64,000 bases of DNA from Sphaerimonospora thailandensis (GTDB lineage: Bacteria > Actinomycetota > Actinomycetes > Streptosporangiales > Streptosporangiaceae), in the NCBI RefSeq assembly GCF_016863115.1, contig NZ_BOOG01000018.1:62001-126000 (forward strand), given 5' to 3'. Under the pieces are notes generated by a model. That model did not search any database, was not told the origin of the DNA, and saw nothing but the letters and a program-made list of their open reading frames with translations. The number at the start of each line of letters is the position of its first letter. The first letter of the stretch is position 1. Both the position numbers and the translations under genes were made by a program. Positions 3,009-22,731 of the stretch are shown one piece after another.

Positions 3009-4403
3009 GTGTCCGGACGAACGCCGCTGCGCATCAGGCTCAGCGCGGCCATGCTCGCGCTGGTCGCCCTCGCGCTGACCGTGTTCGGGGTGAGCAGCAT
3101 GTCGGTGCTCCGTGACTACCTGATCACACGGGTGGACGGGCAGTTGCACAGCATCGCCACCGACGCCGCGCTGCGGGCACAGCGCGGCCCGAATTCGTTC
3201 GGCAGGCTCAGGGTGCCGCCCGACGGACGGGTGGAGGTCCGTGACCGCGAGGGCAGGACCATCCTGGAACAGACCGGAATGGCGGTCGAGGACGTGCCGG
3301 GCCCGCTGCCGGTGACATCCACGGTCCCCCAGACGCTTCCCGCCGTTTCGGGTGACGGCCGCTGGCGTGCCAAGATCCTCTCCGTCGACGGGAAGGGCAC
3401 CGTGGTCGTCGCCATGGACCTGGCCCCGGTCACTCAGATCGTCACCCGGCTCGCGATCATCGAACTGCTGTGCGGCGGCGTCGTCATGACCGTGCTGGCC
3501 GTGGTGGGGGTGGTTCTCGTACGGCGCAGCCTGCGGCCGCTGACGGAGATCGAGGCGACGGCCGCGGCCATCGCCCAGGGCCACCTCGGCAGCCGCATCC
3601 CCGACCGCGACCCGCGTACGGAGGTCGGCAGCCTGGCGCGATCGCTCAACGGCATGCTGACGCAGATCGAGTCGGCGTTCCAGGCGCGCGCCGGGTCGGA
3701 GGCCGCCGCCCGCGAGTCGGAGGCGCGGATGCGGCGCTTCATCGCCGACGCCTCTCACGAGTTGCGCACGCCGCTCACGTCGATCCGGGGATTCGCCGAG
3801 TTCTACCGGCAGGCGCCCGAATCCGACGCGACCCGGCTGATGGAGCGGATCGAAGGCGAGGCGTCCCGGATGGGGTTGCTCGTGGAGGACCTGCTGCTGC
3901 TCGCGAGGCTGGACCAGCAGCGCCCGCTGCGGCAGCAGCCGGTGGATCTGCTGGCCATCGCGGCGGATGCCGTACACGACGCGCGGACGCTCTGCCCGGA
4001 TCGGGACGTGTCACTGGTGATGGAAGGGGAGAAGGCGCTGATCGTGTCCGGCGACGAGGTGCGGCTGCGCCAGGTCGTCGGCAACCTCATGAGCAATGCG
4101 ACCACCCACACTCCCGGCGGGACCGCGGTCACGGTTCGCGTCGGCGCCACCGAAGATCACGCGTACATCGAGGTGGCCGACGAGGGGCCGGGGCTCACCG
4201 CTGAGCAGGCGGCCAGGGTCTTCGAGCGCTTCTACCGTGCGGACCCTTCGCGGAAACGGCCCGCGGGAGGGAGCGGCCTCGGGCTCGCCATCGTCGACTC
4301 CCTCGTGCGCGCCCACGGTGGAAGCGTGAGCGTGCGGTCGGAACCGGGAGCCGGGGCCGCCTTCCGAGCCGTCCTCCCCCTGGCCCCCGAGGCCCTGTCC
4401 TGA
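3009..4403 (+). CDS. Sensor histidine kinase
   Basis: Membrane kinase of 464 residues. Order: short cytoplasmic start, first membrane helix (about 12-33), extracellular sensor region of about 105 residues, second helix (about 145-172), HAMP linker, dimerisation domain with the phospho-acceptor His250 in SHELRTPLTSI, and an ATPase domain with N box (LMSNATTHT), G1 (DEGPGLT) and G2 (GGSGLGLAIVDSL). It should phosphorylate the response regulator encoded directly upstream, and possibly the paralogue downstream. GTG start with 7 bases after the upstream stop. Sensor ligand unknown; the periplasmic part shows no known domain by eye. Confidence 0.9.
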   Translation: MSGRTPLRIRLSAAMLALVALALTVFGVSSMSVLRDYLITRVDGQLHSIATDAALRAQRGPNSFGRLRVPPDGRVEVRDREGRTILEQTGMAVEDVPGPLPVTSTVPQTLPAVSGDGRWRAKILSVDGKGTVVVAMDLAPVTQIVTRLAIIELLCGGVVMTVLAVVGVVLVRRSLRPLTEIEATAAAIAQGHLGSRIPDRDPRTEVGSLARSLNGMLTQIESAFQARAGSEAAARESEARMRRFIADASHELRTPLTSIRGFAEFYRQAPESDATRLMERIEGEASRMGLLVEDLLLLARLDQQRPLRQQPVDLLAIAADAVHDARTLCPDRDVSLVMEGEKALIVSGDEVRLRQVVGNLMSNATTHTPGGTAVTVRVGATEDHAYIEVADEGPGLTAEQAARVFERFYRADPSRKRPAGGSGLGLAIVDSLVRAHGGSVSVRSEPGAGAAFRAVLPLAPEALS

Positions 4404-4504
4404 CCACCCACCCCCCACGGATGGGTCGAGGCCCTGAGCTTCACAGGAAATCCTCAGGAACGGCCAAGGTGGTCCACAGCGGGGTTTGCCAGGGTTTCAG
4501 CATT

Positions 4505-5260
4505 ATGAAGCCAGTGACCACCACCATCGGCGCGATGAGCACCGGAAGGTCTGCGAACAGCGTCAGCACCGCGGACGCACCGGCAGGCCGCCTGCTCGTC
4601 GTCGACGATGAGCCGAACATCCTGGAGCTCCTGTCGGCCAGCCTGCGGTTCGCCGGCTTCGAAGTGATGACCGCCTCGAACGGCAGCGAAGCGGTGCTCG
4701 CCGCCGAGCGGGAACGGCCCGACCTGATCGTGCTCGACGTCATGCTGCCCGATGTGGACGGCCTGACCGTCGCCGATCGGGTCCGCGGGTCCGGGCCGCG
4801 GATCCCGGTGGTCTTCCTGACCGCCAGGGACGCGACCGAAGACAAGATCGCCGGACTGAGCAAGGCCGACGACTACGTGACCAAGCCGTTCAGCCTGGAA
4901 GAGGTCATCGCGAGGATCCAGGCCGTGCTGCGCCGAACCCGTGGCGAGGACACCCCGGCCCGGCTCGAGGTCGCCGACCTGGCGATGGACGAGGACACCC
5001 GGCAGGTGTGGCGGGCGGGACGGCCCGCACGGCTCTCGCCGACCGAGTTCAAGCTCCTGCACTACTTCATGGTCAACCAGGGCAGGGTGCTCTCGAAGGC
5101 GCAGATCCTCGACCACGTGTGGCACTACGATTTCGGCGGGGACGCCAACGTCGTCGAGTCATACGTCTCCTATCTCCGGCGGAAGATCGACAGGGTCGAA
5201 CCGAAGCTCATCCACACGATTCGCGGCGTGGGCTACGTGCTGCGCGCGCCGCGCCGCTGA
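4505..5260 (+). CDS. OmpR-family response regulator (second paralogue, orphan position)
   Basis: Regulator of 251 residues, very similar to the one at 2288-3001 through both domains; phospho-acceptor Asp78 in LIVLDVMLPDVDG and Lys in VTKPF are present. Compared with its paralogue, the loop before the conserved DDYVTKPF is one residue shorter (LSKADDY against LTLGGDDY). It has about 20 extra N-terminal residues. ATG 4505 is preferred because AGGG lies upstream; ATG 4535 is the alternative. It has its own 101-base upstream region, no kinase of its own next to it, and a strong terminator after it, so it is probably a separate unit that shares the upstream kinase. Confidence 0.85.
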   Translation: MKPVTTTIGAMSTGRSANSVSTADAPAGRLLVVDDEPNILELLSASLRFAGFEVMTASNGSEAVLAAERERPDLIVLDVMLPDVDGLTVADRVRGSGPRIPVVFLTARDATEDKIAGLSKADDYVTKPFSLEEVIARIQAVLRRTRGEDTPARLEVADLAMDEDTRQVWRAGRPARLSPTEFKLLHYFMVNQGRVLSKAQILDHVWHYDFGGDANVVESYVSYLRRKIDRVEPKLIHTIRGVGYVLRAPRR

Positions 5261-10520: not shown

Positions 10521-10568
10521 CTCAGTCCCGGGTGGTCTCAGTCACGGGTGGTCTCAGTCACGGGTGGT
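10521..10568. repeat. Three 16-bp tandem repeats spanning the hmgA stop codon
   Basis: Three head-to-tail copies of CTCAGTCACGGGTGGT (one base differs in the first copy). Read on the minus strand, each copy repeats the last four codons and the TGA stop of hmgA, so the gene end has been duplicated twice downstream without changing the protein. Confidence 0.9.
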
Positions 10569-11726
10569 CCACGTCCAGGCGTAGGCGGGATCCTCGCAGG
10601 ACAGTGCCGCCGGGCCGAGATCGAGTGGCCGGAACGTGTCGAGCATGACCGCGACCTCGGTGGTCGTCGTGAGGCCCTGCCGTACGGCCTCGACGACCGC
10701 CTCCACCGCGCCCGGCTGCGGACCGTGCGTGAAGCCCGCCGGGTGCAGCGAGATCGAGCCGACGTCGATGCCGGACCCCTTGCGCGCCGTGTAGTCGCCA
10801 CCCACGTAGAACATGAACTCGTCGGAGTCCACGTTGTGGTGGTTGTACGGGATCGGCACGGCCTCGGGATGGAAGTCCAGCGGCCGGGGGCAGAACGAGC
10901 AGATGACGAAGCCCGGGCCCTCGAACGTCTGGTGGACCGGCGGCGGCGCGTGCGTCCGCTTCACGATCGGTTCGAAGTCGTGGATGTTGAAGGCGTACGG
11001 GTACAGGTAGCCGTCCCAGCCGACCACGTCGAACGGGTGGTTCTCGTAGGTGAGCCGGGTCAGCCCGCCTCTCGTGCGGACCAGGACCGGGACCTCCTCG
11101 CCGTTCGCCAGCAGCGGCTCGACCGGCCCGCGCAGATCCCGCTCGCTGTAGGGGGCGTGCTCCAGGAACTGCCCGTACTGCGACAGGTACCGCTTGGGCG
11201 GTCTGATGTGCCCCGCCGCCTCGATGACCAGCGCGGTCACCGGGCCCTGTGGCACCCAGCGGTGGATCGTCCCGGTCGGCACCACGACGTAGTCGCCCTC
11301 GCCCACGTCCATCGCGCCGTACGTCGACTCGAAGCGCGCCCGCCCGCTCGCGATGTACACGCACTCGTCGCCCATCGAGTCGCGGTAGAGCTCGCTCGGC
11401 GTGTCCGTCGCGGCGTACGAGATCCGGACGTCGGCGTTGCCGGCGAGCAGCATCCGCCCGGAGACCAGGTCGCCGGTCGTCGAGAGATCACGGGTGCGGA
11501 AGTGGCGCGGCGAGAGCGGGAGGTTGGGCGCGAGCTCGGCAGCCCCCCCGTCGACGGTCTCGGCCTTCACGATCGCCGTGGGCGCGTGGCGGTGGTAGAG
11601 GAGCGAGGAGTCCGAGGAGAACCCCTCCTCGCCCATCAGTTCCTCCTGGTAGAGCCCGCCGTCGGGCCTGCGGAACTGTACGTGGCGTTTGCGCGGCACC
11701 TCGCCGACGCTGCGGTAGTACGGCAT
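10554..11726 (-). CDS. hmgA: Homogentisate 1,2-dioxygenase
   Basis: Cupin-fold iron dioxygenase of 390 residues that opens the ring of homogentisate to maleylacetoacetate in tyrosine/phenylalanine catabolism. The expected iron ligands are visible: His and Glu in YNHHNVDSDEF and the His of FTHGPQPG. The conserved TYENHPFDVVGWDGYLYPY segment also fits. It is shorter than the classical enzyme (about 430-445 residues), as is common in actinobacteria. ATG 11726 has GGAGG upstream. An IclR regulator lies upstream on the same strand and a 15-bp inverted repeat sits 24 bases before the start. The 3' end carries a tandem duplication of its stop region. Confidence 0.8.
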   Translation of the reverse strand: MPYYRSVGEVPRKRHVQFRRPDGGLYQEELMGEEGFSSDSSLLYHRHAPTAIVKAETVDGGAAELAPNLPLSPRHFRTRDLSTTGDLVSGRMLLAGNADVRISYAATDTPSELYRDSMGDECVYIASGRARFESTYGAMDVGEGDYVVVPTGTIHRWVPQGPVTALVIEAAGHIRPPKRYLSQYGQFLEHAPYSERDLRGPVEPLLANGEEVPVLVRTRGGLTRLTYENHPFDVVGWDGYLYPYAFNIHDFEPIVKRTHAPPPVHQTFEGPGFVICSFCPRPLDFHPEAVPIPYNHHNVDSDEFMFYVGGDYTARKGSGIDVGSISLHPAGFTHGPQPGAVEAVVEAVRQGLTTTTEVAVMLDTFRPLDLGPAALSCEDPAYAWTWTTRD

Positions 11727-11749
11727 GGCGATCCTCCATAGCCGATGAT

Positions 11750-11764
11750 GTCCGGATATCGGAC
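11750..11764. promoter_or_regulatory. Candidate operator of hmgA
   Basis: Inverted repeat GTCCGGATATCGGAC (5-base arms, 5-base spacer) 24 bases upstream of the hmgA start. Position suggests repression or activation by the neighbouring IclR protein; this is inference. Confidence 0.4.
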
Positions 11765-11889
11765 GCTTGTGTCCCCTATACGTACGACGATCCGTCACCG
11801 AGCCACGGATGTCAAACGACGTGCGCGGACCACCTGGTAATTGGGGCGAGCAAGGTTGTCCGGGCGCTGTGGATGACGGCGTGCGCCGG

Positions 11890-12588
11890 TCACCCGGCAG
11901 GCTGAGCGGGCGAGGGCTCCGGCTGGGCGAGCGCGGCTGCGAGGTCCTCGGCCGCGGTGAGCACGAGCGGACCCACCGTCGCCACGTCGAGGTCGGCGAA
12001 GCTGACCACGCCGACCGACGCCTCCAGCCACGAGAGGCCCGTGATGGGCGCGGCGATGCCCGTGGCGCCCTCCTGGAGTTGGCCGCGGCTCGTGCGGAGC
12101 GGCGGATCGCCGCCGTTCCCCTTGTCGTCGCCGGAGGGGGCGGCCCGTAGTGCGAGCAGCGCCAGTCCGGCGGCGCCGCGGGTGAGCGGATGCCGCGAGC
12201 CCTCCCGGTAGGCGAGGTGCAGGTCGGTCCACGACGGCTCGACCACGGCCACGGCCAGCCCCTCGTCGCCTTCGGCGATCGTCAGGTGCGCGGTCGCCCC
12301 GGCCCGCTCGGCGAGCGTGCGCAGCACCGGGAGCGCCGTCGCGCGCAGCAGGGGCTGTACGGCCTGGGCCAGCATGAGGACGCCGAACCCGAGATGGACC
12401 CGCCCGTCGGCGTCCCGTCTGGCGAAGCCCTCGGCCTGCAGCGTGGTGAGCAACCGGTAGACGACCGGGCGGCTGAGGCCGAGCTCGCCGGCCAGCTCGG
12501 TGGGTGTGCGCCCCCCGTGGCCCTCCGCGAGCAGCCGCAACAGCCGTAATCCCCGTTCCAGCGTCTGCGCCGACTCGGCCGCCATCAT
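11890..12588 (-). CDS. IclR-family transcriptional regulator
   Basis: Regulator of 232 residues with an N-terminal winged helix-turn-helix (about 8-68; TELAGELGLSRPVVYRLLTTL) and a C-terminal effector domain (about 80-225) with the usual GATAHLTIAEGDE start. IclR proteins commonly control aromatic catabolism, so the adjacent hmgA, 163 bases downstream on the same strand, is the likely target. The effector domain carries a short insertion (SGDDKGNGGD) and ends early, so it is on the small side for the family. Two ATG codons are adjacent at 12588 and 12585. Confidence 0.85.
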   Translation of the reverse strand: MMAAESAQTLERGLRLLRLLAEGHGGRTPTELAGELGLSRPVVYRLLTTLQAEGFARRDADGRVHLGFGVLMLAQAVQPLLRATALPVLRTLAERAGATAHLTIAEGDEGLAVAVVEPSWTDLHLAYREGSRHPLTRGAAGLALLALRAAPSGDDKGNGGDPPLRTSRGQLQEGATGIAAPITGLSWLEASVGVVSFADLDVATVGPLVLTAAEDLAAALAQPEPSPAQPAG

Positions 12589-14633: not shown

Positions 14634-14726
14634 ATGTACAAGGAGTTCCTCGGCGAGGTCGTGGTGTGGCTGATCCCCGTCGTCGTCCTTGTCGGGCTGG
14701 CGCTGCTGGTCGTCAACACCGCGTAG
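14634..14726 (+). CDS. 30-residue single-helix membrane microprotein
   Basis: Short gene starting at ATG 14634 with GGAGG 11 bases upstream and ending 12 bases before a strong hairpin terminator. The product has a short charged start (MYKEFLGE) and one hydrophobic helix of about 20 residues (VVVWLIPVVVLVGLALLVV). The private terminator and ribosome site make it a convincing independent unit. An upstream start at 14535 would give 62 residues but has no ribosome site. Function unknown; similar single-helix microproteins modulate membrane complexes or small-molecule transport. No neighbour points to a partner. Confidence 0.6.
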   Translation: MYKEFLGEVVVWLIPVVVLVGLALLVVNTA

Positions 14727-14771: not shown

Positions 14772-14960
14772 CGCGTGCCCGGGTTGAGATGCCCGGACAA
14801 CCATCACTTCTCCCTCACCAACCACTCAAACACCGCTGGTTCTCCACAGGTCACCTTGACCGTGACAAAAGTGTCACTTCACCGCAAGATTGATCAATCG
14901 GTGTGGATCATGTGATACTTCGCGAATGGCATGATCGTCACCGTGGGGGAGCGAGCCCAG

Positions 14961-16328
14961 ATGTCCCTTGATGCCGTCGTTGACGCCGCCGCCGGGTCGG
15001 CCCGTAGCGCCGCCACGCTTCCCTTCTATCGGTTGCTGGCGAAGCACCCGCGAGACCCGGTCAGCGCCTTCGAGGAGGTGGGCCGGCAGGCGGGCGGACA
15101 GATCGTCCGGCTCAACATGGGCCCCTTCCGCCCCTATTTGGTGACCCATCCCGACCACGTGCAGCACGTTCTGAAGACGAACCAGCCCAACTATGTGCGC
15201 GAGGGCATGTTCTGGGATCCGCTGGCTCCGTTGATCGGTGGCGGCATCCTGTCGGACGGGGAGAGCTGGCGGGAGAGCCGGAAGATCCTGCAGCCGCTGT
15301 TCACCGTCAAGTATGTCGACTCGCTGGCCGAGCGGATGGCCGACATCCTGGTCGAGCAGATCGACGAGGTCGTACGGCCCGGCGAGCCGTTCGACATCGT
15401 CGGCGGCATCGCCGAGATCGTGCAGAAGACCATCGTGCGGCTGTTCTTCGGCGACAAGATCTCCGATGAGGACATCGCCCGGCTGATCCCGGCCTACGAG
15501 GTCGGCGTCACCGCGACGGCGATCCGCCTGGTCCTGCCTTTCGTCCCCGGCTATGTCCCGATGCCCGGCGACCGCGCGTTCCGCCGGTCGATCAGGACGA
15601 TCGACGACGTGATCTACCCCCGCGTCCGGGCGGCCCGCGAAGACCCGGGCGACGGACTGGACGTCGTTTCCGCTATCGCCCGCGCCCGGCGCGACGACAT
15701 CGGGCCGGAGGGTGACCGGCGGATCCGTGACGACATGGTGGGCATGCACGGCGCCTCCTCCGAGACCACCTCCACCGCGCTGGCCTGGGCGTGGGTGATG
15801 CTGGACGAGCATCAGGACGTCGCTGAGCGGATCTACGAGGAGATCGACGGAACTGTGGGCGATGGTCCGGTCCGGCCCTCGCACCTGCCCGAACTGCAGT
15901 ACATGCGGAGATTTCTTCAGGAGGTGGTGCGCTTGTACCCCTCGGGGTGGATCCTGCCGCGGCGGGTGCTGGAGACGGACGTCATCGGCGGAGTCACGGT
16001 CAAGGCGGGGTCGACGGTCGTGCTCAGCCCGTACATCACCCACCGGCTCGAGGAGTTCTGGGAGCGGCCGCTCGAGTTCGACCCGGAGCGCTTCGCCCCG
16101 GGGCGGGAGCGGCGGCACCGGTGGTCCTACATCCCGTTCAGCGGCGGCCCGCACCAGTGCCTGGGACAGCACCTCTTCATGATCCAGGCGCAGTTCCTGC
16201 TCGTCAGCATGCTGAGCCGCTACCGCCCGGTACTGCATGCCTCCGGACCGAAGCGGGCGCGTTTGGCCTCCACCCTGAGACCGGGCGGACGGCTCCAGAT
16301 GACGATGGTCGAGCGCTCCCGGGCATGA
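14961..16328 (+). CDS. Cytochrome P450 of a terpene operon
   Basis: Haem-thiolate monooxygenase of 455 residues. Landmarks: I-helix oxygen-binding motif GASSETT (about 264-270), K-helix EVVR, and haem loop FSGGPHQCLGQHL with axial Cys400. The Phe-x-x-Gly start of the haem loop is normal; the sequence looks like the CYP102/CYP4-like long bacterial class rather than typical Streptomyces CYP105. Start ATG 14961 is preferred for its GGGGGAG site; ATG 14931 is possible. The next gene begins inside its stop codon (ATGA), so it is co-translated with a terpene synthase and probably hydroxylates the cyclised product. Redox partners are not in the operon. Confidence 0.85.
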   Translation: MSLDAVVDAAAGSARSAATLPFYRLLAKHPRDPVSAFEEVGRQAGGQIVRLNMGPFRPYLVTHPDHVQHVLKTNQPNYVREGMFWDPLAPLIGGGILSDGESWRESRKILQPLFTVKYVDSLAERMADILVEQIDEVVRPGEPFDIVGGIAEIVQKTIVRLFFGDKISDEDIARLIPAYEVGVTATAIRLVLPFVPGYVPMPGDRAFRRSIRTIDDVIYPRVRAAREDPGDGLDVVSAIARARRDDIGPEGDRRIRDDMVGMHGASSETTSTALAWAWVMLDEHQDVAERIYEEIDGTVGDGPVRPSHLPELQYMRRFLQEVVRLYPSGWILPRRVLETDVIGGVTVKAGSTVVLSPYITHRLEEFWERPLEFDPERFAPGRERRHRWSYIPFSGGPHQCLGQHLFMIQAQFLLVSMLSRYRPVLHASGPKRARLASTLRPGGRLQMTMVERSRA

Positions 16329-17212
16329 ATCCACCGGACATGGGCCTCGGCGCCGGGAAATTCTCGGCCGCCGCCGAACTGGGGCGTACATGCGCGCTCG
16401 CCGCCAGGTCCCAGCGCGATCTCATCGCCTGCGCCGACGCGTACCGGGAGCTGTTCCCGGTCAGGCCGTTCGATCCGGGGTTCTTCAGCGGGCTCTCACT
16501 CGTCGGCGCGTTCGGTTCGCCCTGGGCGACTCCCGAGGAACTGCGTGCGGTCAACCGGGCCTCCCTGTGGATCTTCGCGGTGGACTACCTCGCCGATGTC
16601 GTCGCAGGGTCGGCGGCCGAGATCGACGCACTGGTGAGTGACTGCCTCGCCGCCGCCGGGGGTGGCGACGCCGGTCCGCCGATCGCCCGTTTCCTCGCGG
16701 AGATCCGCGACGAGCTGGCCGTGACGCCGTCGTTTCCCGTGCTGCACCCGATCTGGCTCGACCAGCTCGCGCGCACGCTGCTCGCCATGGCCGCGGAATG
16801 GCGGTGGAAGAGCGGGGGGACGTCGCTCACGCTCGACGAATACCTGGACAACGCCGACGGCTGCGGTTCGTCGTTCGTCAATGTCTCCCACTGGATCGCG
16901 ACCGGCGATCCCTGGACGCTCGATCACCTCGACGAGTTGCGGGAGGTCAGCGCGGAGGTGCAGCGCTATCTGCGCCTGCTCAACGACCTGGCGACCCATG
17001 GCCGGGAGATCGAGTGGGGTGACCTGAACGCGCTGACGCTCGGCGTCGGCCGTGACGAGGTGACCGCACGGATGCGCGAGATCGTCGACCGCTGCGCGAC
17101 CCTCCTGGAACCCGTCCGGGCCGGCAGTCCCCGTACCGCCGACTACCTGGAACGCCAAATCGGATTCAACACCGGCTTCTACGGCCTCGTGGACTACTGG
17201 GGTGAACTTTGA
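16325..17212 (+). CDS. Class I terpene synthase
   Basis: Protein of 295 residues with the two metal-binding motifs of class I terpene synthases: an aspartate motif DYLAD (Asp87, Asp91; a variant of DDxxD with Tyr at the second position) and an exact NSE triad N220-D-L-x-T224-x-x-x-E228. It would ionise a prenyl diphosphate, most likely the product of the class II cyclase encoded next to it. It is short for the family (about 320-360), missing part of the usual C terminus. ATG overlaps the P450 stop and its own TGA overlaps the next start, so three genes are coupled. No geranylgeranyl diphosphate synthase is in the window. Confidence 0.75.
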   Translation: MNPPDMGLGAGKFSAAAELGRTCALAARSQRDLIACADAYRELFPVRPFDPGFFSGLSLVGAFGSPWATPEELRAVNRASLWIFAVDYLADVVAGSAAEIDALVSDCLAAAGGGDAGPPIARFLAEIRDELAVTPSFPVLHPIWLDQLARTLLAMAAEWRWKSGGTSLTLDEYLDNADGCGSSFVNVSHWIATGDPWTLDHLDELREVSAEVQRYLRLLNDLATHGREIEWGDLNALTLGVGRDEVTARMREIVDRCATLLEPVRAGSPRTADYLERQIGFNTGFYGLVDYWGEL

Positions 17213-18789
17213 GCTCAACGGATCTCATCCTCGGAGCGCAGATCGACGTGACCGCGGCCGCCGACGAGTTGGTGCGCGGTCTCATGCTCCAGCCCTGGGG
17301 GCAGGTGTCGCCGTCGGTCTACGAGACCGGCAGGCTGGTGACTCTCGCCCCCTGGCTGGTGGGGCACCGTGACCGGGTGGCGTATCTGACCGGGACACAG
17401 CACCCCGACGGGGCATGGGGGGCGCCGGACGGGTACGCCCTGGTACCGACCCTGAGCGCCACCGAGGCCCTCCTCTCCGCCCTCATCAGAGGAGACGACT
17501 GCGGTCTGGCGGCGGAGGTCCTGATGGAATCGGCTGTGCGCGGGCTGCACGCGCTCACCCGCCTGCTGGCGGAGTCCGAGGCCGTCCGCCTCCCCGACAC
17601 GCCCGCCATCGAGATCATCGTCATGTCGCTCGTCGCGCTCGTCAACGCGCACCTCGATGTCCTGCCCGGCGCCGGGATCGAGCGCCTGCCGCTGCCCGCG
17701 GGGCTCAGCGAGGCGCCGCTGACCATGATCAGGCGGCGGCTCGAATCGGGGGAGACCCTCCCGGACAAGCTCATGCACGCACTGGAGGTGGGTGGCCGGG
17801 CGGCCGCGGGCGCGCCCGCCGTGTGGCCGACCGCGGCGGGAACGATCGGGGCCTCGCCCGCCGCGACCGCCGCGTGGCTCGCCGTCGGCGATCCGCCCAA
17901 TCCGGGCGATCCGGCCCGCAGGCACCTGGAGGCGGTCGCGCTGCGCTATGGCGGGCCGGTGCCCGTGGGTCTTCCGATCACGGTGTTCGAGCGCGGCTGG
18001 GTGCTGAGCTGGCTGGGCCGCGCCGGGATCGAGTTCCACGTCCCGCCCGAGATGCCGGCCGACCTCGCGGCGGCGATCGGTCCGGCCGGCACCCCGGCGG
18101 GTGCGGGGCTGCCACCGGACGCCGACACCACGTCGGTCGCGCTGTACGCGCTCTCGCTGCTCGGCATGCCGTACGAGCCGGAGAGCCTGTGGGCATTCGA
18201 GACACCGACGCATTTCTGCACCTGGCAGGGCGAGGAAGGGGCGTCGGTCAGCGTAAATGCACATGTTCTGGATGCATTCGGACATTTCGTGAGGACGCGG
18301 CCCGGCCGGGCCGAAGGCTATGCGGCGGCGATCGGGAAAGTGGCGGCCTGGCTGCGTGAACGGCAGTGGGCCGACGGGAGTTGGGACGACCGCTGGCACG
18401 CGTCGCCGTACTATGCGACCGCCTCCTGTGCGCTCGCGCTCGGCGAATTCGGCGGTGCGGAGTCACGGGCGGCGGTGCGGCGGGCCGTGCGGTGGATCCT
18501 GGACACCCAGCGCGAGGACGGCTCGTGGGGTCGATGGGGCGGCACCGCCGAGGAGACGGCGTACGCGATGCAACTCCTGCTGCTCGTCGGTGGGGACCAC
18601 CCGGTGACCGAGGCGGCGGCGCGGGGTTACCGCTACCTGCGGCGGGTGGCGGACCCCGGCGAGGGGCCGCCGTTGTGGCACGACAAGGACCTCTACGTCC
18701 CCGTGGCGGTCGTCCGGGCGGCCGTGCTGGCCGCCCTGCACCTCGCGCAGAAGAACCCACGTGTTGTCGAGATCGCCTGTCAAGGGTGA
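17209..18789 (+). CDS. Class II diterpene cyclase (protonation-type terpene cyclase)
   Basis: Protein of 526 residues built of alpha/alpha-barrel QW-type repeats (TQHPDGAWG, RQWADGSWDD, TQREDGSWGRW), the fold of squalene cyclases and bacterial copalyl diphosphate synthases. The catalytic DxDD region reads DADTT (Asp304, Asp306), so the general-acid Asp is kept while the fourth position is Thr. It should cyclise geranylgeranyl diphosphate by protonation and hand it to the class I synthase. Starts at TTG 17209 in a TTGA overlap, with GGGGTGA upstream. A perfect hairpin about 120 bases later ends the operon. Confidence 0.8.
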   Translation: MSSTDLILGAQIDVTAAADELVRGLMLQPWGQVSPSVYETGRLVTLAPWLVGHRDRVAYLTGTQHPDGAWGAPDGYALVPTLSATEALLSALIRGDDCGLAAEVLMESAVRGLHALTRLLAESEAVRLPDTPAIEIIVMSLVALVNAHLDVLPGAGIERLPLPAGLSEAPLTMIRRRLESGETLPDKLMHALEVGGRAAAGAPAVWPTAAGTIGASPAATAAWLAVGDPPNPGDPARRHLEAVALRYGGPVPVGLPITVFERGWVLSWLGRAGIEFHVPPEMPADLAAAIGPAGTPAGAGLPPDADTTSVALYALSLLGMPYEPESLWAFETPTHFCTWQGEEGASVSVNAHVLDAFGHFVRTRPGRAEGYAAAIGKVAAWLRERQWADGSWDDRWHASPYYATASCALALGEFGGAESRAAVRRAVRWILDTQREDGSWGRWGGTAEETAYAMQLLLLVGGDHPVTEAAARGYRYLRRVADPGEGPPLWHDKDLYVPVAVVRAAVLAALHLAQKNPRVVEIACQG

Positions 18790-18907: not shown

Positions 18908-18933
18908 GACAGAGCGGCACTTGCCGCTCTGTC
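18908..18933 (+). terminator. Perfect hairpin ending the terpene operon
   Basis: GACAGAGCGGCA and TGCCGCTCTGTC pair over 12 bases with a 2-base (effectively 4-base) loop, followed by AATT. The 217-base spacer between the cyclase and the conservon is noticeably AT-richer than its surroundings and also holds a short inverted repeat GGCTAT/ATAGCC at 18939-18955 upstream of the conservon start. Confidence 0.7.
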
Positions 18934-19006
18934 AATTGGGCTATCGTTAATAGCCGGGAAGCGTGCCGTTCATGACTTTCCTACTTTTACCTGGGTGGTA
19001 CTGTTT

Positions 19007-21343
19007 ATGCGCTTCCGGAATTCGCGCGTGCGAACCAAGGTCGCGGCTCTGCTGGTGTCTCTCACAGCGCTGTGGGCGTTCGCGGCCTGGGTCACGCTCC
19101 GGGAGGGCACGAACCTTGTGTGGGCCGCCACGATCAACAGTGACGTCGCCCAACCGGGCGATCTGCTGGTGCTGGACCTGCAGCGCGAGCGCCGTCTGTC
19201 TCTGACCCGGCTCGGCGATCCGGCACGGTTGCCGCGCAAGGATCTCGACGACCAGAGGGCCCGCACCGACAAGATCGTCGCTGAGTTCTCGGAGTCGGCC
19301 CGGAGCGACAACGTCAAAATGGCGGCCGACGACGTGCTCATGTCGCGCATCAACGAGACGATGCGGCGGCTGGACGGCCTGGATGACATCCGCGCCGCCG
19401 TCGACAGCGGGCGGTTCGACCTGACCCGGGCCGATGGCGCCTTCACCGACATCATCGATTCCTTCTACCACCTGTACGACTCGGTCGCCGAGCTGGACGA
19501 CGCCACCGTCGCAAGGGACGGTCGCACGTTCGGCAGGATGAGCCGAGCGCGTGAGGTCCTCGCACGGGAGGACGCGCTGCTCGCGGGCGTCCTCGCGGCG
19601 GGGCGGTTCAGCGAGCAGGATCACCAGCGGTTCACCAGGCTTGTGGCGGTCCATCGGTTCATCCTCGACGAAACCGCGGGGCAGTTGCCCAAGACGGACC
19701 AGGCGGCGTACGAGAAGTGGCGTAAGTCGCCGCAGGTGACCACGTTGCGCAACCTGGAGGACCAGCTCGCCCGATCTGGTCAGGCCGGTCGCATGCCCTT
19801 CGTCACCGACGCGCAGTGGCGGGCCGTCTCCGATCCCGCGCTGGCAGGACTGCAGAAGATCATCGGTGACGGAGGCGAAAGGCTGGTGGAGCGGGCCGGG
19901 GCGGTCGCCGTCAGCGTGATCATCCGGCTGGTGCTGGCCGGCGGGCTCGGGCTGGTCGCGGTCATCGCGTCCATCGTCCTGTCCATCACCACGGCACGCG
20001 CCCTGGTCCGGCAGCTCGAGAAGCTGCGCACGGCCGCGATGGAGCTCGCCAACGAGCGGCTGCCGGGCGTGGTCGCCCGGCTCGCGCAGGGCGAGAAGGT
20101 CGACGTCCGCACCGAGGCGCCGCCGCTCAAATTCGGCAAGGACGTGATCGGCCAGGTGGGCACCGCCTTCAATAAGGTCCAGGAGACCGCGATCCGCACC
20201 GCCGTCGAGGAGGCCCAGCTCCGGCAGAGCATCCGCGACATCCTGCTCAGCCTCGCCCGGCGCACGCAGTCGCTGGTCCACCGACAGCTCACGCTGCTCG
20301 ACGTGATGGAACGGCGCGAGTCCGAGCCGTCCGAGCTGAAGGACCTGTTCCGGGTCGACCACCTCGCCACGCGGATGCGCCGCAACGCGGAGAACCTCAT
20401 CGTCCTGGCCGGCGCGTCGCCGGCGCGGGCCTGGCGCCGATCGGTGCCGATGGTCGACGTCGTGCGCGGCGCCCTCGCCGAGGTCGAGGACTTCACCCGT
20501 GTGACAGTGCCCCCCATGGGGGAGACCGCGCTGTCCGGACGGGCCGTCGGCGACGTGATCCACCTGCTCGCCGAGCTGATCGAGAACGCGGTGTCGTTCT
20601 CCCCGCCGTACACCACGGTGCAGGTCGGCGGCCAGGTCGTGGCCAGCGGCTACGTGATCGAGATCGAGGACCGCGGCCTGGGGATGAGCACCGAAGACCT
20701 GGCGGCCGCGAACGAGCGGATCTCGAATCCGCCGGAGTTCAACCTGACGAGCACGGCCAGGCTCGGCCTCTACGTGGTCAGCAGGCTGGCCGAGCGGCAC
20801 GGCATCCGGGTGGCGCTGAAGGCGTCGCCGTACGGCGGAACCACCGCGATCGTGCTGCTGCCGCGCGACCTGGTCACCGAGGGCGGGAGCGACCCGTCCG
20901 ACGAGGCGACGGATCACAGACGTGGTCCCCTGCAGGAAGGGGGCGCCCGTGAGACCGCGCTCGTGGGTGCGCCCGAGGTGTTCGCAGCACCAGTCCAGGA
21001 GGTGGTTTCCGTACCGAAGCGTGCCCCAGAACCACAGCGGCCCGAACCACAGCGGCCCGAACCACAGCGGTCCGGACCGAAGCTGAGCGAGCCGGCCGGT
21101 GCCGATGTGCCGAGGCCGGAGTCCCCTGCCTCGTTCACCCCGTCCGGCCTGCCGTTCCGCGTGCCGCAGGCGAGCCTGGCGCCGGAGTTGGCCGCCGGGC
21201 CTCCGGCGTCGCTCGCCGACGAGGACGACGAAGATCGATCGCCGGACGAAATCAGAAAGATCATGGGCTCGTTCCAGTCGGGCACCAGACAGGGCAGATC
21301 CGAGGCGGCGAAGCTGCTGGATGAAGGGGGGGACGACCAGTGA
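19007..21343 (+). CDS. cvnA: Conservon histidine-kinase-like sensor CvnA
   Basis: Protein of 778 residues. N-terminal membrane helix (about 12-32), extracellular nitrate/nitrite-sensing-like helical domain (about 35-300), second membrane helix (about 305-330), HAMP-like linker, a kinase core with a clear ATPase domain (N box LIENAVSFSPP, EDRGLGM, and ARLGLYVVSRLAERHGI), then a long Pro/Glu/Arg-rich tail. The tail contains three 15-bp DNA repeats coding PEPQR. First gene of a complete cvnABCD unit, which in Streptomyces forms a membrane-associated heterocomplex likened to G-protein signalling. ATG 19007 has GGTGG upstream. Confidence 0.85.
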   Translation: MRFRNSRVRTKVAALLVSLTALWAFAAWVTLREGTNLVWAATINSDVAQPGDLLVLDLQRERRLSLTRLGDPARLPRKDLDDQRARTDKIVAEFSESARSDNVKMAADDVLMSRINETMRRLDGLDDIRAAVDSGRFDLTRADGAFTDIIDSFYHLYDSVAELDDATVARDGRTFGRMSRAREVLAREDALLAGVLAAGRFSEQDHQRFTRLVAVHRFILDETAGQLPKTDQAAYEKWRKSPQVTTLRNLEDQLARSGQAGRMPFVTDAQWRAVSDPALAGLQKIIGDGGERLVERAGAVAVSVIIRLVLAGGLGLVAVIASIVLSITTARALVRQLEKLRTAAMELANERLPGVVARLAQGEKVDVRTEAPPLKFGKDVIGQVGTAFNKVQETAIRTAVEEAQLRQSIRDILLSLARRTQSLVHRQLTLLDVMERRESEPSELKDLFRVDHLATRMRRNAENLIVLAGASPARAWRRSVPMVDVVRGALAEVEDFTRVTVPPMGETALSGRAVGDVIHLLAELIENAVSFSPPYTTVQVGGQVVASGYVIEIEDRGLGMSTEDLAAANERISNPPEFNLTSTARLGLYVVSRLAERHGIRVALKASPYGGTTAIVLLPRDLVTEGGSDPSDEATDHRRGPLQEGGARETALVGAPEVFAAPVQEVVSVPKRAPEPQRPEPQRPEPQRSGPKLSEPAGADVPRPESPASFTPSGLPFRVPQASLAPELAAGPPASLADEDDEDRSPDEIRKIMGSFQSGTRQGRSEAAKLLDEGGDDQ

Positions 21344-21759
21344 CGCAGCAGACGGGCACGTCCGCCGATCTGGCGTGGTTGCTCGACGATCTCGTCGACC
21401 GGGTCCGGGAGGCCGAGCACGGCATCGTCCTGTCCAGGGACGGCCTGCTGCTGGCCTCCTCGCGCGGACTGCGCATCGAGGACGCCGAGCACCTGTCCGC
21501 CGTGGCCTCCGGGCTGCAGAGCCTGGCCCGGGGCGTCGGCGAGCGGTTCGACGGCGGCACGGTCAGGCAGACGATCGTCGAGATGAAGTCGGCCTACCTG
21601 CTCGTGACCGTGGCCGGACAGGGCGCCTGCCTCGCCGTACTGTGCAGCGGTGACGCGGACGTGGGCCTGGTGGCCTACGAGATGGCCATGCTCGTCGCCC
21701 GTGTGGGGCAGTACCTCACCTCGCCGGCCCGTACGGTGACGAGAGAGGCGCGTGGATGA
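21340..21759 (+). CDS. cvnB: Roadblock/LC7-domain protein CvnB
   Basis: Protein of 139 residues consisting of one roadblock/LC7 fold (LDDLVDRVREAEHGIVLSRD start, then alternating strands and helices). Roadblock proteins regulate small GTPases; here the target is probably the CvnD GTPase two genes downstream. GTG start in a GTGA overlap with cvnA and an ATGA overlap with cvnC, so the four conservon genes are translated as one unit. Confidence 0.9.
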   Translation: MTQQTGTSADLAWLLDDLVDRVREAEHGIVLSRDGLLLASSRGLRIEDAEHLSAVASGLQSLARGVGERFDGGTVRQTIVEMKSAYLLVTVAGQGACLAVLCSGDADVGLVAYEMAMLVARVGQYLTSPARTVTREARG

Positions 21760-22163
21760 GCGGCAACGAGTGGGGCCCGGGTGAATGGGGTGCGGGTGAA
21801 TGGGGTGCCGACGACGACCGGCTGTTCGACGCCCCCACCATCCGGCCGTACGTCATCGCTCGTGGCCGCACCGAGGCACAGGATCGGTTCGATCTGGTCG
21901 CGCTCGCCGTGACGATCCGTCCCACCACCGGGCACGAGGTCGGTCTCGATCCCGAGCACCAGGCGATCGTACGGCTGTGCCGCAGGCCGCTGTCGGTCGC
22001 GGAGATCGCGGCGCACCTGGACCTGCCCGCGGGGATCGTCCGGGTCCTCCTCGGTGACCTGTTCGATCGGGGCTTCGTCGCCGTGCAGCAGCCGCAGCCG
22101 GAGATGGACGTGCTCGACGAGAGAATGTACAAGGCGGTGCTCGATGGCCTTCGGGCGCTCTGA
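21756..22163 (+). CDS. cvnC: DUF742 protein CvnC
   Basis: Protein of 135 residues with the DUF742 domain (about 25-130): APTIRPYVIARGRTEA at the start and a winged-helix-like RRPLSVAEIAAHLDLPAGIVRVLLGDL. The N terminus carries a short repeat, WGPGEWGAGEWGA, encoded by near-identical 15-base units. CvnC proteins bridge the sensor and the GTPase in the conservon complex; the winged-helix pattern may be a protein-binding rather than DNA-binding surface. Overlaps cvnB by 4 and cvnD by 20 bases. Confidence 0.88.
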   Translation: MSGNEWGPGEWGAGEWGADDDRLFDAPTIRPYVIARGRTEAQDRFDLVALAVTIRPTTGHEVGLDPEHQAIVRLCRRPLSVAEIAAHLDLPAGIVRVLLGDLFDRGFVAVQQPQPEMDVLDERMYKAVLDGLRAL

Positions 22164-22731
22164 TCCGCCCAAGATGCCGAAGGCGATCAAACTGTTGATC
22201 GCCGGCGGCTTCGGGGTGGGCAAGACCACGATGGTGGGCGCGGTCTCCGAGATCCGGCCGTTGCGGACCGAGGAGGTCCTCACCGACCGCAGTGTGGGCG
22301 TCGACGACCTGGCCGGGGTGGAGTCCAAGGCCACCACCACCGTGGCGATGGACTTCGGCCGGATCAGCATCGGCGACGAATTCATGCTGTATCTGTTCGG
22401 CACGCCGGGCCAGGAGCGGTTCTGGTTCGTGTGGGACGAGCTCGCCCGGGGCGCGCTCGGCGCCGTGGTGCTGGCGGACACGCGACGACTGGCCGACTGC
22501 TTCCCGTCCGTCGACTATTTCGAACGGCGCGGCACTCCGTTCGTCGTCGCGGTCAACTGTTTCGACGGCGCACCGGTCTTCGAACTCGACGAGGTGAAGC
22601 TCGCGCTCAATCTCGGTGCGGACATTCCCGTCATGCTGTGCGATGCGCGCCGGCGCGAGTCGGGCAAGGAGGTCCTGATAACGCTGGTCAAACACGCGTA
22701 TCACAGGCGCCCAGCAACGCCCGTCGGGTGA
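22144..22731 (+). CDS. cvnD: Conservon GTP-binding protein CvnD
   Basis: Small GTPase of 195 residues with P loop GGFGVGKTTMV, a TVAMDFG switch-I Thr region, G3 FGTPGQERF, and a G4-like NCFD in place of NKxD. The NCFD variant is common among CvnD proteins. It is the switch of the conservon and lies last, starting inside cvnC. Known conservons in Streptomyces influence aerial growth and secondary metabolism, and some are followed by P450 genes; here the P450/terpene operon lies just before the conservon. Confidence 0.9.
   Translation: MAFGRSDPPKMPKAIKLLIAGGFGVGKTTMVGAVSEIRPLRTEEVLTDRSVGVDDLAGVESKATTTVAMDFGRISIGDEFMLYLFGTPGQERFWFVWDELARGALGAVVLADTRRLADCFPSVDYFERRGTPFVVAVNCFDGAPVFELDEVKLALNLGADIPVMLCDARRRESGKEVLITLVKHAYHRRPATPVG

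Follow-up and report, generated by a model that had tools for sequence, protein, structure and literature searches.

A terp1/sat-type diterpenoid operon in Sphaerimonospora thailandensis adjoins a conservon whose sensor half is replaced together with the biosynthetic enzymes

We analyzed a stretch of 64,000 nucleotides from Sphaerimonospora thailandensis (contig NZ_BOOG01000018.1, positions 62,001 to 126,000; here called the window) that contains a three-gene diterpenoid operon followed immediately, on the same strand, by a cvnABCD conservon, a type of actinobacterial G-protein system (18995-22731; Table 1). A previous reading of the letters and open reading frames (the sequence-only reading) had proposed a P450 gene, a short class I synthase gene, and a class II cyclase gene joined by ATGA and TTGA overlaps, and our coordinates, open reading frames, and Pfam matches (p450, E 3.7e-63; Terpene_syn_C_2, 3.7e-11; SQHop_cyclase_C, 1e-14) agree with it. 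The DYLAD, NSE-triad, and DADTT motifs are also present as it read them. For the P450, GGGGGAG precedes the ATG at 14961; a longer open reading frame from 14931 has no ribosome binding site. Since the identical genes in the identical P450-class I-class II order recur in dozens of genomes, the three-gene operon is not a chance arrangement. The coordinates of the sequence-only reading ended before the conservon, which it missed. We identified cvnA, cvnB, cvnC, and cvnD in order, the first three by Pfam (NIT and HATPase, Robl_LC7, and DUF742) and cvnD by synteny; cvnD is 66-92% identical among loci.

Table 1. Features of the diterpenoid operon and the adjoining conservon, in window coordinates.
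Feature	Position	Strand	Details
P450 gene	14961..16328	+	455 aa; ATG start 14961
Short class I diterpene synthase gene	16325..17212	+	295 aa; ATG start, ATGA overlap with P450
DYLAD Asp-rich motif of class I	16583..16597	+	Equivalent to DWQVD of Sat1646
NDLATHGRE, NSE-type Mg-binding triad of class I	16982..17008	+	Alignment to Sat1646
Class II diterpene cyclase gene	17209..18789	+	526 aa; TTG start, TTGA overlap with class I
DADTT catalytic-acid motif of class II cyclase	18118..18132	+	Family norm
12-bp inverted repeat GACAGAGCGGCA-CT-TGCCGCTCTGTC	18908..18933	+	In the class II-cvnA gap; no counterpart found in relatives
cvnA, sensor histidine-kinase-like	18995..21343	+	GTG 18995 or ATG 19007; NIT + HAMP + HATPase; transmembrane helices aa 16-34, 313-331
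CvnA extracytoplasmic sensor part (aa 35-315)	19097..19939	+	Co-varies and swaps with the three enzymes
cvnB, roadblock/LC7 protein	21340..21759	+	Pfam Robl_LC7
cvnC, DUF742 protein	21756..22163	+	Pfam
cvnD, small Ras-like GTPase	22144..22731	+	Start inferred, ATG 22144; P-loop GGFGVGKTT

The operon belongs to a family with a characterized member. The closest match of the class I protein is Sat1646 (PDB 7e4n; phmmer E 2e-77; 284 residues aligned at 48% identity), which is encoded by the sat cluster in a strain of Salinispora. The paper on this enzyme (PMC9814573), on which all our statements about terp1, sat, and Sat1646 draw, describes sat as nearly identical to terp1 of S. arenicola, in which SaCPS (class II), SaDTS (class I), and CYP1051A1 (P450) yield isopimara-8,15-dien-19-ol by way of copalyl diphosphate, isopimara-8,15-diene, and oxidation to the C19 alcohol. 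Locus L088 of genome G576, which we take as Salinispora from its 98% class I match to Sat1646, has the three genes in identical order, likewise overlapping, a DADTT class II cyclase, a DxxxD class I synthase, and a conservon directly downstream. The window operon differs from it in its low identity (P450 43%, class I 48%, class II 52%) and in having Cys for Tyr183 and Phe for Thr85 of the class I active site. By gene order, overlaps, and homology of all three genes, then, the window operon is a diverged new member of the characterized terp1/sat family with ordinary motifs. The operon family is widespread: 180 of the 355 genomes in the Micromonosporaceae-like family to which G236 and G576 belong have a class I match, and the operon also occurs in many genomes from the family of the window.

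This kinship bears on the product. The sequence-only reading had suggested a simple oxidized labdane of unknown structure and regarded clear orthology to a characterized pathway as grounds for abandoning that idea. Such orthology is largely what we find, the diverged class I active site (Tyr183 to Cys) aside. The labdane-related nature of the pathway stands; because terp1/sat, with the same genes, makes isopimara-8,15-dien-19-ol, we prefer an oxidized isopimarane to an unspecified oxidized labdane as a guess at the product, and on sequence grounds the window operon most probably directs terp1-type isopimarane biosynthesis. The gene set is that of a labdane-related class II/class I/P450 operon using geranylgeranyl diphosphate (GGPP) made elsewhere. 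The operon itself encodes neither a prenyl diphosphate synthase nor a redox partner, as the sequence-only reading had noted, and the genome search for a GGPP synthase that it recommended returned three prenyl synthase candidates, all unlinked; two were scanned, and both fell under the NCBIfam cut-offs. Three 3Fe-4S ferredoxins are encoded elsewhere in the genome, unlinked to the operon. A 3Fe-4S ferredoxin gene at 127781-127954 of the window's own contig (C18 of genome G000), about 1.8 kb past the window end, is a possible but unlinked P450 partner. The P450 has the heme motif FSGGPHQCLG and the I-helix motif ASSETT, and its Salinispora terp1 counterpart, at about 43% identity, is CYP1051A1-like. 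Its best PDB matches are the putative P450 7wzl and 3dbg, and its best NCBIfam match, under the cut-off, is the albaflavenone monooxygenase model. Other contigs of the genome encode a terpene synthase of two domains whose architecture resembles that of geosmin synthase, and one further terpene synthase.

Linkage of the operon to the conservon is a property of the family. We assembled 74 extended loci from two families and set aside two with only a degenerate class I gene beside cvnD; in 69 of the remaining 72 the conservon lies directly downstream on the same strand. These 69 include one locus with an inverted class II gene (L134), one without a cvnB match (L144), and one only partly covered (L148). 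At one further locus (L124/L219) the whole conservon has been relocated to lie divergently, immediately upstream of the P450 gene, and the pairing is retained. As there are only about seven CvnA-like genes in the 6.2-Mb genome, this linkage is far above chance. Co-occurrence gives the same picture: among 60 related genomes, a CvnA at 57-100% identity is found in exactly the 14 that hold the class II gene, and lies next to it, while the next best full-length CvnA match is at 50%. The 69 linked CvnA proteins also form a single clade (SH-aLRT 99), with 11 paralogues from the window genome and Salinispora falling outside it, a moderate argument given that the tree was quick and the paralogue branches are long. 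Together, the operon and conservon form a seven-gene module that we regard as functionally coupled with high confidence. The word conservon is absent from the text of the 2021 terp1/sat paper, and none appears in the passages seen of it; a full-text search of the open-access literature, outside which most subscription papers lie, returned nothing relevant for conservons with terpenes or diterpenes, and we found no description there of the seven-gene module or of the enzyme-plus-sensor cassette described below. We also considered, and dropped, the idea of regulatory palindromes shared by the regions upstream of the P450 gene and of cvnA (14862-14877, 14888-14899, and 18908-18933), which are present in the window and not conserved in relatives.

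Between close relatives, the three enzymes are replaced in step with the extracytoplasmic sensor half of CvnA, on a conserved kinase half. In four pairs of loci drawn from both families and counted as about four replacements (L160/L094, L092/L129, L136/L091, and L157/L152), the kinase half and CvnB, CvnC, and CvnD, the core of the conservon, are mostly 96-100% identical, whereas the sensor half is 43-53% and the enzymes are 48-68% identical. For L160/L094 the values are 97-99% for the core, 43% for the sensor, and 48-55% for the enzymes, and for L092/L129 they are 98-100%, 49%, and 50-66%. Conversely, L136/L092 and L091/L129 match in both enzymes (74-92%) and sensor (79-84%). The species in the swapped pairs are close, the sensor of an unlinked CvnA paralogue being 93% identical in two of the four. 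In the DNA of the swapped pairs, the flank preceding the P450 gene is 92-94% identical and the block from the P450 to the sensor is diverged (~60%); within cvnA, in the interval nt 900-1260, identity jumps to 97-99%, a sharp boundary in or shortly after the second transmembrane helix. Across the 214 pairs, not independent of one another, whose cores are at least 88% identical, enzyme and sensor identity correlate at 0.97, while 2000 permutations within core clusters gave at most 0.58. Sensor clusters likewise agree much more closely with enzyme clusters (adjusted Rand 0.79-0.90) than with core clusters (0.35-0.44). At ~60% identity there are 31 sensor clusters among some 64 loci. The window shares its type with S. 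mesophila (enzymes 87-93%, sensor 88%) and with Microbispora hainanensis/bryophytorum (enzymes 66-74%, sensor 58-62%).

We consider the best explanation to be a terp1/sat-type operon with a dedicated conservon whose CvnA senses the product, to which we assign a probability of roughly 45%. The class II cyclase would use its DADTT motif to protonate and cyclize GGPP supplied by unlinked genes, giving a copalyl-type diphosphate. The class I synthase would ionize this intermediate with Mg held by DxxxD and NDxxTxxxE and close the third ring to yield an isopimaradiene-type hydrocarbon, with a double bond possibly unlike that of terp1 given Cys183, and the P450 would oxidize it using a ferredoxin supplied in trans. 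CvnA would then sense the product or a close precursor with its extracytoplasmic NIT-type domain and act through CvnB and CvnC on the GTPase CvnD to control the operon and other genes. The concerted exchange of enzymes and sensor half suggests a role for the diterpene as a signal read by the cell. The sequence itself shows the operon and its family, its linkage to and co-occurrence with the conservon, and this exchange; from these we infer the product, the ligand, and the direction of regulation, and that the diterpenoid or its precursor is the CvnA ligand is possible at a little under even odds.

A tentative further step is a communication system in which a cassette-specific oxidized isopimarane would be the cognate CvnA ligand, related actinobacteria carrying different signal-receptor types that are swapped onto the conserved G-protein core to give pherotype-like groups. 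Pherotype loci have a recognizable anatomy, in which enzymes and receptor half vary together and the kinase half and downstream genes are conserved. We find this anatomy here, with the caveat that the varying parts are contiguous. In ComQXPA of Bacillus, the signal-making genes are highly polymorphic among near-identical strains and define communication groups (PMC4408185). ComQXPA differs in using a peptide signal and a response regulator, whereas the window module, known from its genes, has predicted diterpenoid enzymes and a GTPase system. The variable receptor part in ComQXPA is the ComP sensor half, and agr offers a parallel.

Several points weigh against our best explanation. NIT domains are best known for nitrate and nitrite. 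Loci L114 and L123, natural losses, carry the cyclase pair without a conservon in the DNA examined, and L114 also lacks the P450. Cys183 is no proof of a new product, since the Y183A variant of Sat1646, with less product, still formed some isopimara-8,15-diene (PMC9814573). Contiguous enzymes and sensor half could also be co-transferred neutrally, by recombination anchored in the kinase half and the upstream flank. Finally, over 51 loci the sensor appeared to track the enzymes more closely than its own kinase half, but the effect was not significant in a rank-distance control in 27 genomes, which gave a sensor-kinase value of 0.75 for the linked CvnA and 0.83 for an unlinked paralogue, with a bootstrap interval that includes zero. 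We therefore set the distance-correlation argument aside and rely on the pairwise replacements and DNA boundaries.

An ordinary terp1-type isopimarane operon could instead be transcriptionally regulated by a conservon that senses another cue, environmental or from a rival species, with the niche co-selecting enzymes and sensor. The linkage and co-occurrence of operon and conservon also fit this unlikely but serious alternative. A known case of conservon control of specialized metabolism, which speaks for our best explanation too, is Cvn8 of S. coelicolor, which represses its adjacent lanthipeptide cluster, is negatively autoregulated (PMC8510531; PMC13343842), and responds to interspecies interaction (PMC8510531). 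Cvn8 shares with the window the cvnA-B-C-D order, the domains, and an adjoining biosynthetic cluster; it differs in that its cluster is a lanthipeptide one and it has an accessory CvnF8, whereas the window CvnA has its own NIT domain and a diterpenoid operon as partner. Ligands of conservon sensors, including NIT-bearing CvnA proteins, are not established (PMC13343842). Further in favor of regulation by another cue, no diterpenoid was detected in fermentation of the sat-bearing Salinispora strain (PMC9814573). Such regulation alone, however, gives no account of why the sensor type changes each time the enzymes do.

That change would be accounted for by neutral cassette transfer, in which homologous recombination between conserved anchors carries the sensor half along by its position between the enzymes and the kinase half. 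The contiguity of enzymes and sensor half, the boundaries at the onset of conserved sequence, and the non-significant 27-genome control are consistent with it, and exchange inside the cassette does occur, as in L155/L158 (P450 85%, class I 63%, class II 58%). Against it, replacement is repeated in at least four species pairs of two families, none of the 214 pairs combines matched enzymes with a mismatched sensor, the boundaries cluster near the second transmembrane helix instead of scattering through the conserved kinase half, and the conservon stays with the operon on rearrangement at L124. We regard neutral transfer as distinctly unlikely; the boundaries near helix 2 and the lack of mismatches favor functional pairing of enzymes and sensor, without proof.

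A very improbable alternative is that the enzymes make a two-ring labdane of new structure by chemistry unrelated to terp1, the variant motifs reflecting a new mechanism. The motifs, which the sequence-only reading had called variant, do depart from the textbook forms; within the family, including terp1/sat, they are normal, and we reject DADTT and DYLAD as unusual. Of 72 class II relatives, 68 have DADTT, two DADTS, one DADSS, and one DCDTT, and DxxxD is the rule in class I, with W, R, H, or Y in second position. The SQHop_cyclase_C match and the DxD of DADTT agree with a class II fold. Among solved structures, the window cyclase is closest to PtmT2, a platensimycin-type ent-copalyl diphosphate synthase (5bp8; E 2e-117), followed by 7xkx and 6vpt. 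PtmT2 differs in reading DSDDT and belongs to a separate pathway. The M. tuberculosis class II cyclase Rv3377c (6vpt), which reads DCDTT, is a solved enzyme in which a DxDTT acid motif is already known, although it is distant (E 8e-29) and its product is different.

The class I active site is where the window enzyme does depart from Sat1646. In the crystal of Sat1646, whose Asp-rich motif is EDWQVD, Asp88 and Asp92 bind Mg (PMC9814573); the window DYLAD retains both aspartates, and both predicted Mg-binding motifs align to the Sat1646 Mg ligands. Sat1646 also employs a Tyr183-Tyr288 dyad, and its Y183F variant makes isopimara-8(14),15-diene (PMC9814573). The window enzyme has Tyr288 without the dyad, since position 183 is Cys, and it differs at 182 (Gly), 84, and 85 (Phe); this departure and the sequence-only reading itself speak for a new labdane. 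Against one, Sat1646 variants at 183 and 84 still give isopimaradienes, or less of them (PMC9814573). The dyad is missing from most class I relatives too and is therefore a marker of Salinispora-like enzymes, not of the operon family: residue 183 is Leu, Phe, Tyr, Cys, Thr, Val, or Arg. All 13 enzymes with Tyr183 have Thr or Ser at 85, and 57 of the 61 without it have Phe85, so an aromatic residue seems, from the alignment, to have moved from helix G to helix C between class I types. Product regiochemistry may thus vary within the family, and because its catalytic Tyr183 is replaced by Cys, with Phe85, the window enzyme may make a product other than the 8,15-diene.

CvnE accessories are P450s beside conservons (PMC13343842), but we reject the idea that the P450 of the operon is one of them. 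CvnE goes with CvnA proteins lacking a sensory domain (PMC13343842), whereas the window CvnA retains its NIT domain; moreover, the P450 gene comes first in the operon, joined to the cyclase genes by the ATGA overlap, and its product is homologous to the P450 of terp1.

We also made observations on related and neighboring loci. Genome G534 carries two modules (L115 and L116) whose kinase halves and CvnB, CvnC, and CvnD are mutually most alike (83-88%) and whose enzymes and sensors differ (49-60%). Two genomes from a single genus each encode a class I relative (L131:454-1287 and L138:2986-3852) whose metal motifs have decayed, with Gly for Asn223 and Tyr288 lost; these genes lie directly upstream of a lone cvnD-like GTPase gene, and their products are possibly dead synthases turned sensors or accessories. 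L134 also holds, at 3781-4581, another class I relative, degenerate and 37% identical, which has lost the first Asp of DxxxD and lies tail to tail with cvnD of the terp1-like module having the inverted class II gene. Upstream of the window operon, 14634-14726 (+) encodes a 30-residue membrane peptide, MYKEFLGEVVVWLIPVVVLVGLALLVVNTA, which is conserved in Streptosporangiaceae loci (69-83% identical) and has no convincing match in loci of the other family. An HgmA-like dioxygenase and IclR regulator pair at 10554-12588 (-) also precedes the module in several loci of Microbispora and was not seen in loci of the other family.

A co-inherited sensor whose outer half changes with the enzymes offers a direct candidate ligand for a conservon. 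In turn, the conservon is a direct candidate for the regulator of a silent diterpene operon, which about half of the Micromonosporaceae-like genomes searched carry. Should CvnA bind the operon's own product, the module would represent a bacterial terpenoid self-signal whose receptor types are interchangeable.

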